From a bacterium (lineage in GTDB: Bacteria; ARS69): a DNA stretch of 14,434 bases. Both the position numbers and the translations under genes were made by a program. The notes below the pieces were generated by a model. The model did no database searches. It had not been told where the DNA came from and saw only the letters and a list, made by a program, of their open reading frames with translations. Below, piece after piece: positions 117 through 12,252 of the stretch (position 1 is its first letter; every line of letters begins with the position of its first letter). The stretch lies in the NCBI GenBank assembly GCA_025774865.1, contig JALGZO010000473.1:1-14434 (forward strand), written 5' to 3'.

Positions 117-1223
117 TCACTCGACGATGTCGAGCAACTCCACGTCGAACACCAGGGTCGCGTTCGCCGGAATCCGGCCGCCGGCGCCCCGCGCGCCGTA
201 ACCGAGCTCCGACGGGATGATCAGAATGCGCTTCTCACCGACCTTCATGTCGAGGAACGCGATGTCCCATCCCTTGATCACCTGTCCGACCCCGATCGCC
301 GTCTGGAACGGCTTTCCACGGTCGACGCTCGAATCGAACTTCGAGCCGTCCAGAAGATAGCCCGTGTAGTGGGCGGAAATGGTTTGCCCGACCGACGGCT
401 TCTCTCCTTCACCCCCCTGGCGGACGATGTACTCGAGACCCTCGGATGTCTTGACGGCTTCAGCCAGGTCGAACCCCAGCTTTTCGGCGATCTCCACTTT
501 TTGAGCTCCTTCCCTCTCGGCCTTCTCGCGCTTCATGCGGTCGATGAGATCCGATTCCTTGGCGTACTCTGTCTTCCAGTCGAAGGCGTTCGCCGCCTCC
601 CCGGTCGCTACGATTCGGACTTCTTCGAGAATGATGTCGACCAGCGGGATGGAAGCCGGGGCGCCGGGCCGCGACGCTCCCTTCATCTCGACCTTCGCCA
701 TCGCGTCCACGACGTCTTGACCATAGACACATTGGCCGAACACGGAGTGCTTGTCGTCCAGCCAGGGCGTCGCCTTGTGCGTGATGTAGAACTGGCTGCC
801 GTTCGTCGCGGGGCCGGAGTTCGCCATCGACAGGACGCCGGGCTTGTCGTGCCTGAGATCCGGATGAAACTCGTCGCTGAACGAGTATCCCGGGCCACCG
901 CGCCCGTTTCCGAGAGGGCAGCCGCCCTGGATCATGAAGTCCGGAATGCAACGGTGAAACTTGAGTCCGTTGTAGAAGGGCGTCTTGGTCATGTCTCCCG
1001 TCTTCGGATCCCGCCACTCCTTCTCGCCGGTCGCCAGGCCGACGAAGTTCGCCACGGTGACGGGGGCCTTGTCGTAGTGCAGCCGGCACACGATCGAGCC
1101 CATCGAGGTCTGAAAGACCGCGTAGAGGCCGTCTTCCTTCGTCGCTTCCGCCACGGCAGGCTCCTCGGCGCGGGCTGATCCCACGAAAACGGAGAGAATG
1201 GCGAGTCCTATCAACTGCAACAT
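117..1223 (-). CDS. Exported dual-family peptidyl-prolyl isomerase: cyclophilin domain fused to FKBP domain
   Basis: This 368-residue protein should catalyse cis-trans isomerisation of peptidyl-prolyl bonds outside the cytoplasm. Residues 1-19 form a signal peptide (hydrophobic LIGLAILSVFVG, then ARA/E). Residues 33-205 are a cyclophilin domain with FHR (catalytic Arg91), F96-MIQGG, a MANSGPATNGSQFYIT block at 133-148, Trp154 (equivalent to human CypA W121) and H159. Residues about 215-260 are a charged, probably helical linker. Residues 262-367 are an FKBP domain with HYTG (Tyr286), F296-D297, V315-I316-K-G-W319, Y342 and F359. The active-site residues of both families are present, so both domains look active. 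The start ATG follows GAGGAAGACAG, an acceptable ribosome binding site. It lies 97 bp downstream of selD on the same strand. Single-domain enzymes of both families are common, but fusions are rare and known as dual-family immunophilins (CFBP/FCBP). Family assignment is very secure. Confidence 0.95.
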   Translation of the reverse strand: MLQLIGLAILSVFVGSARAEEPAVAEATKEDGLYAVFQTSMGSIVCRLHYDKAPVTVANFVGLATGEKEWRDPKTGDMTKTPFYNGLKFHRCIPDFMIQGGCPLGNGRGGPGYSFSDEFHPDLRHDKPGVLSMANSGPATNGSQFYITHKATPWLDDKHSVFGQCVYGQDVVDAMAKVEMKGASRPGAPASIPLVDIILEEVRIVATGEAANAFDWKTEYAKESDLIDRMKREKAEREGAQKVEIAEKLGFDLAEAVKTSEGLEYIVRQGGEGEKPSVGQTISAHYTGYLLDGSKFDSSVDRGKPFQTAIGVGQVIKGWDIAFLDMKVGEKRILIIPSELGYGARGAGGRIPANATLVFDVELLDIVE

Positions 1224-9825: not shown

Positions 9826-11436
9826 TCATCCGCTCGTTTCGAGCCCGAGCTTCTTGATCCGCGCATTCAAGGTGGTGCGCGGAATGCCCATGAGTTCCGC
9901 CGCCTCCTTCTTGTTGCCCTCGGTCAGCTGCAGCACAGAACGGATGTAGTCGCGCTCCATGCTTTCGTAAGAAGGCACGACGAGAGCGTCGCCAGTGGGG
10001 AGGGGACCCCGTCCGTCCGTCGGAACTGGGACGAGCGGTTGGCCGGCGCCCGGGCTTGTGGGGAGCCCGGTGCGTCCGGCGCCGCTATGCTTCGCGGACG
10101 GGCCTCCCCCTCCCCCGGCGAGCCCTGATCCCGGGCCGCTCGGTAGGTGCTCGGGGCGGAGCTCGTCCTCTTTCGCGGCGCGAACCAACGCTCCGAAGAT
10201 CACGCTCTCGAGCTCCCGCATGTTTCCTCGCAACTCCATCCGATTCACCGCCTGCAAGAAGCCGGATGACAGGGACGGCGGCGCCCGCCGCGGTCCGCAG
10301 TGCCGTTCGAGAAGGTGGCGGGCGAGGACCGGAATCTCCTCGGGTCGTTCCCGCAGCGGCGGAATCCGGATCGAGTACATCTGGAGTCGGTAGAACAGAT
10401 CGGAGCGGAATCGACCCTCCGCCACGACTCCAGAGAGGTCCACGTTCGTGGCGCTCACGACCCGGGCGCGGGCCGGGATGTCGACCTCACCGCCCACGCG
10501 GCGGAAGCTCCGCTCCTGGAGCACGCGTAGCAGGCTCGCCTGCGTATCGGGCGGCATGTCTCCGATCTCATCGAGGAAGATCGTGCCGTTCCCGGCTCGT
10601 TCGAACGCGCCGCGCGCGGTCGAAACCGCACCGGTGAACGCGCCGCGCTCGTGCCCGAAGAGAGCGCTCGCCATGAGGTCGCGCGGGATAGCCGCGCAGT
10701 TGATCGCTTCGAACGAGCCCTTGCGATGTGGACTCAGGTCGTGGATCGCCCGGGCGACGACTTCCTTGCCGGTTCCGGTTTCTCCCAGGATCAAGACCGG
10801 CAAGTCGAACTCGCCGAGAGCGAGCAGCTCCTCGAAGAGAGCGGCCGTCGTCGGACCCTCACCGCGGTAGGCGTCCAGCGCGGGGTTGGCCTCGCGCAGC
10901 CCCTCGACTCGTTTCTTCGCTCCGCGCGCCCGCGTTCCGGGCGCGCTCGTTCCGGCCGGTGGTCCGAACGCGAGTTCGGCGAGCTTGACGATCTCGGCCG
11001 CGATCGAGAGATCCCGCTCGGAGTAGGTTTCCCCGAAGTGCTTCGGCCCGAGTGCGAACACGCCGCGGAGATGCCCGTCGTGGCTCACTCCGACCATCGC
11101 GTCGATGCGGAGGCGCTTCGCGAAGCGGGCGGCCGGCGCTCCGATTTCCGCCAGCTCGCTCGCGCGCAGCGGAGCGTCCGCCTCGCAGAGCGACTTCTCC
11201 AGCTTCCGGGTCACCGCGAGAGCGTCGTCGCTCTTCTCGGACCGGCCGCGAACGGCTTGAGGAACGAGCCGATCCTCCTCGTTTCTTCGGAGATAGAGAG
11301 CGAACTCCGCGCCGCTCGCTCCCATGAGCGAGAGCAGCGTATAGCGGAGCAGCTCGGTGCGGCGACGCAGTCCGAGAAAGCCTCGCGCCGCATCGTAGAG
11401 AATGGAGAGATCGAGGAGGTCCGTTTCGCGGGTCAT
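9826..11436 (-). CDS. Sigma-54-dependent transcriptional activator (GAF - AAA+ - Fis HTH)
   Basis: This 536-residue enhancer-binding protein remodels the RNA polymerase-sigma-54 closed complex using ATP. Residues about 6-157 are a GAF-type sensor (LLDLSILYDAARGFLGLRRR ... VGVSHDGHLRGVFALG), so it is regulated by a ligand or protein, not by a receiver phosphorylation domain. Residues about 190-432 are the AAA+ domain: Walker A GETGTGKE (218-225), an intact sigma-54-contacting GAFTGA (265-270), Walker B IFLDE (286-290), RSDLFYRL (344-351) and GNMREL in place of the usual GNVREL, with the preceding WP replaced. Residues 435-487 are a Gly/Pro/Ser-rich linker, and 499-532 are a Fis-type helix-turn-helix (EAAELMGIPRTTLNARIKKL). 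ATG 11436 is preferred because GGGGG lies 6 nt upstream; GTG 11439 is in frame but too close. Its start overlaps the STAS stop by one base (TGATG). Family assignment is certain; the regulon is unknown. Confidence 0.95.
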   Translation of the reverse strand: MTRETDLLDLSILYDAARGFLGLRRRTELLRYTLLSLMGASGAEFALYLRRNEEDRLVPQAVRGRSEKSDDALAVTRKLEKSLCEADAPLRASELAEIGAPAARFAKRLRIDAMVGVSHDGHLRGVFALGPKHFGETYSERDLSIAAEIVKLAELAFGPPAGTSAPGTRARGAKKRVEGLREANPALDAYRGEGPTTAALFEELLALGEFDLPVLILGETGTGKEVVARAIHDLSPHRKGSFEAINCAAIPRDLMASALFGHERGAFTGAVSTARGAFERAGNGTIFLDEIGDMPPDTQASLLRVLQERSFRRVGGEVDIPARARVVSATNVDLSGVVAEGRFRSDLFYRLQMYSIRIPPLRERPEEIPVLARHLLERHCGPRRAPPSLSSGFLQAVNRMELRGNMRELESVIFGALVRAAKEDELRPEHLPSGPGSGLAGGGGGPSAKHSGAGRTGLPTSPGAGQPLVPVPTDGRGPLPTGDALVVPSYESMERDYIRSVLQLTEGNKKEAAELMGIPRTTLNARIKKLGLETSG

Positions 11437-11804
11437 CACGAGCCCCCTTGCTCACGCCCCTCCCGAACCGACTCGATCGCGGCTTCGACCGAATCGAACA
11501 CGACCGCGTAGCGCGGTAACTGCACTCGCTCCAGCACGAGCTTCGGTTGCGCGGTGACGTTCGCCAGAGCGACCGGAATGTTCTGCTCCCGGCCGCGGCG
11601 AACGAGGTCGAAGAGCAGGCCCACGCCGGCGCTGTTCGTCGTCTCGACGCCGGTGAAATCCACGATGATGAGTCGCGGCGAGCTCTCCAGCGCGTCGCGT
11701 ACGATTGGGAGGAGAGGTTCCTCGGTGGCGGCGCCGACATCGGTCGGTAGCCCGATCACGCGCACATCGCCCACCTCGGTCAGAGTCACCTGAGAGTCAT
11801 CCAT
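11436..11804 (-). CDS. STAS-domain anti-sigma-factor antagonist (RsbV/SpoIIAA-like)
   Basis: This 122-residue protein is a single STAS domain: VTLTEVGDVRVIGLPTDV, LIIVDFTGVETTNSAGVGLLFDLV (split over two elements) and a C-terminal VFDSVEAAIESV. In RsbV-type proteins a conserved serine is phosphorylated by the partner kinase, releasing the kinase's other target; here Ser58 in the motif N-S-A-G-V-G is retained, so switching by phosphorylation is plausible. The ATG at 11804 follows GGAG with a 9-nt spacer. It overlaps the end of the upstream kinase gene by 8 bases, and its own stop overlaps the activator start by one base. This gives the gene order kinase, antagonist, sigma-54 activator in a single translationally coupled unit. 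Confidence 0.92.
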   Translation of the reverse strand: MDDSQVTLTEVGDVRVIGLPTDVGAATEEPLLPIVRDALESSPRLIIVDFTGVETTNSAGVGLLFDLVRRGREQNIPVALANVTAQPKLVLERVQLPRYAVVFDSVEAAIESVREGREQGGS

Positions 11805-12252
11805 GGGGGGTCTCCGTGATCCGAGGATCGACCGGAACGGCCGGTGCCTCGGCTTCGAACTGCAATCTTACGGTTTGGCCGCCGTCCGCGTGAACGAGGA
11901 AGTGGACGTCGGACGCGAGCGATCGCATCAAGAACACGCCCCATCCGCCGGGCGGGTCCTTCCCTCCGATCTTTCGCTCGAGATCCGGGAGCGGCGGGAT
12001 CCGGTCGAGGCCTTTCCCGCGATCGCGAACCTCCACGAGCAGGTGGCCATCGTCGACCTGCGCGGTCAGCTGAATCGGATCCTCGCGCTTCCCGCCGTGT
12101 CCGTGCACCGCGGCATTCGAGAGGGCTTCGCCAACCGCAGTCTGGACCTCGTAACGGCGGGTCCGGGTGAATCCCAGTGGCTCGCCCAGGTCCGCGACTT
12201 CGCGGGCGAGGTGCAGGATCGCGTCGTCCGTTCCGTTGAGAGTGCGCTGCAT
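11797..12252 (-). CDS. RsbW/SpoIIAB-like anti-sigma factor, HATPase serine kinase
   Basis: This 151-residue protein has the GHKL ATP-binding fold of the anti-sigma kinase family. The N-box is TAVGEALSNAAVHGHG (E42, N46), the G1 box is VRDRGKGLD (D77, G79, G81) and the G2 box is GGWGVFLMRSLASDV (102-116). Such proteins bind either a sigma factor or other target or the STAS antagonist, and phosphorylate the latter. The STAS gene overlaps its 3' end by 8 bases, the classical partner-switch pairing. No sigma-70-family gene and no PP2C phosphatase are in the window, so the target and the input phosphatase are not visible; the co-operonic sigma-54 activator is an attractive candidate target. The ATG at 12252 follows GAGG with a 10-nt spacer. 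The C-terminal 15 residues extend beyond the family core. Confidence 0.93.
   Translation of the reverse strand: MQRTLNGTDDAILHLAREVADLGEPLGFTRTRRYEVQTAVGEALSNAAVHGHGGKREDPIQLTAQVDDGHLLVEVRDRGKGLDRIPPLPDLERKIGGKDPPGGWGVFLMRSLASDVHFLVHADGGQTVRLQFEAEAPAVPVDPRITETPHG

Follow-up and report, generated by a model that had tools for sequence, protein, structure and literature searches.

The established role of partner switches is the release of sigma factors. The locus described here shares with the SpoIIAB–SpoIIAA–SpoIIE and RsbW–RsbV–RsbU switches an N-box GHKL kinase, a STAS protein whose serine aligns to known phosphosites, adjacent and overlapping genes, and SpoIIE-type phosphatases in the genome. 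Unlike those switches, it has no adjoining sigma gene, its third gene encodes a sigma-54 activator, and no SigB/F/G-type sigma factor scores above the cut-off in the genome.

A second point of comparison is the NifL–NifA system, in which NifL inhibits NifA through a GHKL/DHp–AAA+ contact (PMC12998174). Both loci combine a GHKL-domain protein with a GAF-AAA+-Fis activator; NifL, however, is a large protein of PAS-DHp-GHKL architecture and lacks a STAS partner, whereas the kinase described here is an RsbW-like protein of 151 aa that has one. In NorR, the GAF domain represses the AAA+ domain of the same protein (PMC2941729). The SypE–SypA–SypG system of Vibrio fischeri is alike in having one locus for a STAS protein, the serine kinase/phosphatase that acts on it and an activator, SypG (PMC10120452). 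It differs in that SypG is a two-component response regulator, SypE combines kinase and phosphatase, the downstream target of SypA is unidentified and no GAF activator takes part. A literature search on partner switching with GAFTGA-containing or sigma-54 activators, which covered few subscription papers, brought up no account of a module of this type.

An operon-like unit of kinase, STAS protein and activator

The window, i.e. the whole stretch of DNA that we analysed, is one entire contig of 14,434 bp (G000:C477) from a draft genome that is 92.65% complete; the neighbourhood of the trio therefore stops at the contig ends. Three co-directional, overlapping open reading frames lie on the minus strand in the order kinase, STAS protein, activator, with the following features:

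12252–11797, minus strand: RsbW/SpoIIAB-like GHKL serine kinase, 151 aa (Pfam HATPase_c_2, 1.6e-22)
11797–11804, minus strand: overlap of the kinase and STAS genes, exactly 8 bp
11804–11436, minus strand: STAS anti-sigma-antagonist-like protein, 122 aa (Pfam STAS, 1.8e-10; alignments to TM1442 and RsfB)
11633–11631, minus strand: codon of Ser58, the predicted phosphorylation site, in the context TNSAG, opposite the MDSAG serine of TM1442 in the alignment
11436–11439, minus strand: overlap of the STAS stop and the activator start, 1 bp with ATG 11436 or 4 bp with GTG 11439
11436–9826, minus strand: GAF-AAA+-Fis sigma-54 activator, 536 aa from ATG 11436, with GTG 11439 as alternative start (Sigma54_activat, 8.2e-62; HTH_8, 3.7e-10)
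11361–10966, minus strand: GAF domain, residues 26–157 (GAF_3 call on a paralog; AlphaFold2 model and Foldseek)
10644–10627, minus strand: intact GAFTGA sigma-54 contact loop, residues 265–270, read from the sequence and kept in two close relatives

By the codon usage of the window all three frames score as coding, although the trio had itself contributed to the training; G+C content is uniform along the contig. The trio is a genuine operon-like unit. Neither a sigma-70-family gene nor a phosphatase gene is present in the window, and a search of it for the −24/−12 sigma-54 promoter pattern returned 10 matches against 13.75 expected, at or below chance. Elsewhere on the contig, a homolog of SelD (selenide, water dikinase) at 2365–1321 (minus strand) contains an in-frame TGA at 2325–2323 that, from its context HTAG-U-ASKICAKD, looks like a selenocysteine position. 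The hairpin directly following this TGA (fold z-score only −1.5) could be a bacterial SECIS element. At 117–1223 (minus strand), Pfam detects cyclophilin-type and FKBP-type peptidyl-prolyl isomerases fused in one protein.

The kinase aligns to the structures of SpoIIAB (1til, 1.3e-5) and RsbW (6m36, 0.0035), and its N-box residues E42 and N46 stand opposite positions 46 and 50 of SpoIIAB; kinase activity is predicted from this similarity. Its score against the NCBIfam model spIIAB (9.1e-12) lies under the equivalog cut-off. According to Pfam it is a single domain without PAS, and it does not show the fusion of PAS and DHp to GHKL by which NifL-type proteins are recognized. The predicted phosphorylation site of the STAS protein carries the same number as the phosphosite of SpoIIAA, S58 (PMC11418112). 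A search across genome contigs with the STAS protein of the window retrieved no relatives; the protein is short and divergent.

The activator combines Walker A (GETGTGKE) and Walker B motifs, an AAA lid also called by Pfam, the GAFTGA loop and a Fis-type helix-turn-helix, the set that defines a sigma-54 activator (bEBP) in a genome that encodes RpoN. It does not reach the NCBIfam nifA equivalog (264.9 bits against a cut-off of 528.85), so that only its architecture is NifA-like. Pfam calls no GAF domain on the activator itself. A close paralog in the same genome (L061) is called GAF_3 (1.3e-8), and an AlphaFold2 model of residues 1–165 (pLDDT 80.7) matches solved GAF-containing structures in Foldseek (best 1.6e-5); as modelled, the N-terminus is a GAF domain. 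The full-length AlphaFold2 model was poor (pLDDT 49.9) and was left out of all structural readings.

The genome encodes one copy of RpoN (6.8e-63), two RpoD, three RpoS-like and one FliA-type sigma factor and many ECF sigma factors; among the candidates scored from this 92.65% complete assembly, none lies above the SigBFG cut-off. Nine SpoIIE-domain matches are found outside the window, the genome encodes seven or more phosphatases of the SpoIIE type, and on contig C145 (L034) a second partner-switch kinase adjoins a phosphatase. The first-pass annotation had described an operon of an RsbW-like kinase, a STAS antagonist with a phosphorylatable serine and a GAF-AAA+-Fis sigma-54 activator, joined by 8-bp and 1-bp overlaps, with no sigma-70-family partner present and a phosphatase that would have to be encoded elsewhere. 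The frames, strands and overlaps agree with this description, apart from the 4-bp overlap that the GTG start would create. The domain matches, the N-box conserved with SpoIIAB and RsbW, the alignment of Ser58, the intact GAFTGA loop and the paralog and model for GAF bear out the assignments, and the window and genome searches bear out the statements on the sigma factor and the phosphatase.

Distribution of the linkage in relatives and other lineages

Five genomes of the phylum, including that of the window, were compared, all from one family. The other four contain no close counterpart of the kinase or the STAS protein, and the trio is absent from them. One of the four (G002) has an activator 56% identical to that of the window (L060, 7727–9277), without kinase or STAS gene, at the end of a pilMNOPQ operon between pilQ and aroK; these gene names are what we take the sequences to be. 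At the matching site in the window's genome (L251), pilQ and aroK are direct neighbours with no activator between them. Within this lineage, the activator family has therefore changed place or disappeared. A paralog on contig C490 of the window's genome is cut off by the contig end on its upstream side.

Of the kinases found in 60 genomes, the one nearest to that of the window (41% identity) comes from G052, Candidatus Tectomicrobia (JACPUC010000016.1), which was again the best match outside the window among 386 genomes, in a search whose query also included the G052 kinase. The G052 genes follow one another on one strand in the order kinase, STAS protein, GAF-AAA+-Fis activator, a further open reading frame and a Cache-HAMP-SpoIIE phosphatase (PP2C). 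An assembly gap interrupts the cluster of “bacterium Bin_13” (JAJVHT010000203.1): before it, a GAF-AAA+-Fis gene overlaps with the beginning of an open reading frame that runs into the gap, and after it come a phosphatase–kinase fusion and then a STAS gene. In G356, from another phylum, the order is activator, kinase, STAS protein, phosphatase. We searched 199 genomes of this phylum with the G356 kinase, obtained matches in 45 genomes and read 30 loci. In 17 of the 30, spanning seven families, an activator gene on the same strand immediately precedes the kinase and STAS genes, and in most of these a phosphatase gene comes next. Kinase identity to G356 falls to ~35% among these 17, so the gene order has been retained over a long divergence. 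The linked STAS proteins that we examined retain the N-S-x-G site. No published description of activator–kinase–STAS–PP2C clusters with a G[VT]ATGV loop was found in a literature search that covered few subscription papers.

Some further arrangements were seen in this material. In the clusters of the G356 phylum (L146, L255–L279), activator and kinase are often separated by a short hydrophobic open reading frame (~60–80 aa). GTATGV/GVATGV-type AAA+ domains occur inside very large proteins of ~1800 aa in G105 and G222 (L141, L144), and in G261 (L069, 4455–6497) a 680-aa STAS-GAF-HD-domain protein adjoins a partner-switch kinase.

Control loci were gathered with profiles built for this analysis. 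A sigma-54-type activator was found in 0 of 40 further partner-switch kinase loci, and a partner-switch gene in 0 of 40 further GAF-activator loci. In the first 30 activator loci read, linkage occurred solely in G052 and G356. The comparison of 17/30 with 0/40 gives p ~1.5e-8; as the 17 loci share ancestry and were found with a query kinase whose linkage was known beforehand, the family count is a better measure than the p value. Taking the independently sampled GVATGV activators alone, a Fisher test of 1/7 against 0/62 is not significant (p 0.10). The strong support lies in the conservation across families of the G356 phylum. The survey supports a recurrent linkage of partner-switch genes to GAF-AAA+-Fis activators across lineages that are not related, at a frequency far higher than in the controls.

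These clusters resemble the window in that an RsbW-like kinase and a STAS protein, usually with a PP2C phosphatase, are co-directional with a GAF-AAA+-Fis activator. They differ from it in activator clade, in the degenerate GAFTGA and, mostly, in gene order: every loop that can be read in their activators is G[VT]ATGV instead of GAFTGA, and of all the clusters seen here, that of the window alone includes a sigma-54 activator with an intact loop. In a tree of AAA+ domains, the G[VT]ATGV activators that could be placed form one clade (SH-aLRT 94), and the activators of the window and G002 and the C490 paralog form another (SH-aLRT 100), which rules out membership of the window activator in the GVATGV clade. 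The kinase tree groups the window kinase weakly with that of G052 (SH-aLRT 80, from few columns), and for this reason we do not claim common descent of the two trios. From the tree, the association of partner switches with activators appears to have arisen more than once. Given the loop and the clade of the other activators, the pairing with an intact sigma-54 activator in the window looks like a separate event.

The first-pass annotation had suggested a possible link from stress-type signalling to sigma-54 and had proposed a survey for conserved adjacency, holding that a trio not conserved in relatives would refute the idea. For near relatives the outcome was the one named as refuting, the trio being missing from all four further genomes of the phylum, while similar linkage does exist in unrelated lineages. 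The connection to sigma-54 stands in so far as RpoN is present and linkage to NtrC-family proteins recurs; since the other linked activators lack GAFTGA and belong to a separate clade, they back partner-switch control of NtrC-family proteins in general and not of sigma-54 activators specifically. Beyond sigma factors, partner switching may have another recurrent kind of output, namely NifA/NtrC-type AAA+-Fis proteins, which would have evolved more than once: an intact sigma-54 activator in the lineage of the window, and a GAFTGA-degenerate, probably sigma-54-independent AAA+ protein in the conserved activator–kinase–STAS–phosphatase cluster of another phylum. We hold this broader reading tentatively, at somewhat short of an even chance.

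Candidate modes of control

Operon structure and recurrence suggest that the three proteins are functionally coupled; which of them binds which, the sign of control and the target promoters are what we infer in the following. In the arrangement that we regard as best supported, the RsbW-like kinase and the STAS antagonist would control the co-encoded NifA-like activator from one operon, with the kinase as anti-activator: (i) the kinase would phosphorylate the STAS protein on Ser58 and so be left free; (ii) the free kinase would bind the GAF or AAA+ domain of the activator and block its activity, much as NifL restrains NifA through its GHKL domain; (iii) a SpoIIE-type phosphatase encoded elsewhere would dephosphorylate the STAS protein and thereby supply the signal; (iv) the unphosphorylated STAS protein would capture the kinase, upon which the activator would assemble and sigma-54 promoters would open; and (v) renewed phosphorylation of the STAS protein would reset the switch. 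The first-pass annotation had proposed that the kinase or the STAS protein may bind the GAF domain and gate the ATPase, an interpretation that is plausible and partly supported; the analogy to NifL–NifA (PMC12998174) suggests that the AAA+ domain may be as likely a contact as the GAF domain. We counted in favour of this model the intact motifs, the gene overlaps, RpoN, the phosphatases, the lack of a SigB/F/G-type sigma factor and the recurrence, and against it the absence of the trio from the four genomes of the phylum, the lone activator L060, the degenerate loop and separate clade of the other linked activators, and the lack of a phosphatase in the cluster. On balance, its chances of being right or wrong appear to us about equal.

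The position of the STAS gene between kinase and activator, overlapping both, would also suit an arrangement in which the STAS protein is itself the output. The kinase would then set its phosphorylation state, and the phosphorylated or unphosphorylated form would bind the GAF domain and turn the activator on or off, as with SypE and SypA of Vibrio fischeri. SypA, RbaV and HmpV are reported to serve as downstream outputs that act on unidentified targets (PMC10120452, PMC8256260), and the STAS-GAF-HD protein of G261 next to a partner-switch kinase fits such a role. The sequence does not separate this arrangement from the one with the kinase as anti-activator, but the GHKL precedent of NifL–NifA favours the kinase, and we consider the STAS protein a rather unlikely output.

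Both arrangements place the target within the operon. In most loci no activator is found near the kinase–STAS pair, so that the targets of such pairs are often unlinked; the pair in the window could control a sigma-70-family factor elsewhere, for instance one of the RpoS-like proteins, while the co-transcribed activator acts independently or regulates the operon. The RpoS-like, FliA-type and ECF sigma factors of the genome offer candidates, and L060 shows that the activator family occurs without the pair. This explanation is unlikely in our judgement, given that no SigB/F/G-type factor exceeds the cut-off in a largely complete genome, that activator linkage recurs above the control rate and that the window contains no −24/−12 signal to back self-regulation. 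A recent accident of gene shuffling without regulatory meaning would agree with the conservation of the trio in none of the four other genomes, with the mobility or loss of the activator family at the pilQ–aroK site and with the fact that activators and kinase–STAS pairs are both common genes. The overlaps on both sides of the STAS gene, the association in 0 of the 80 control loci and the recurrence in several other lineages make this very improbable.

The clusters of the G356 phylum raise the question of what role AAA+-Fis proteins without GAFTGA play under partner-switch control. For the several STAS systems whose outputs await identification, the recurrent genetic link makes AAA+ enhancer-binding proteins a concrete candidate. 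If kinase and STAS protein do control the activator of the window, signalling by serine kinases and phosphatases would be connected to sigma-54 transcription.
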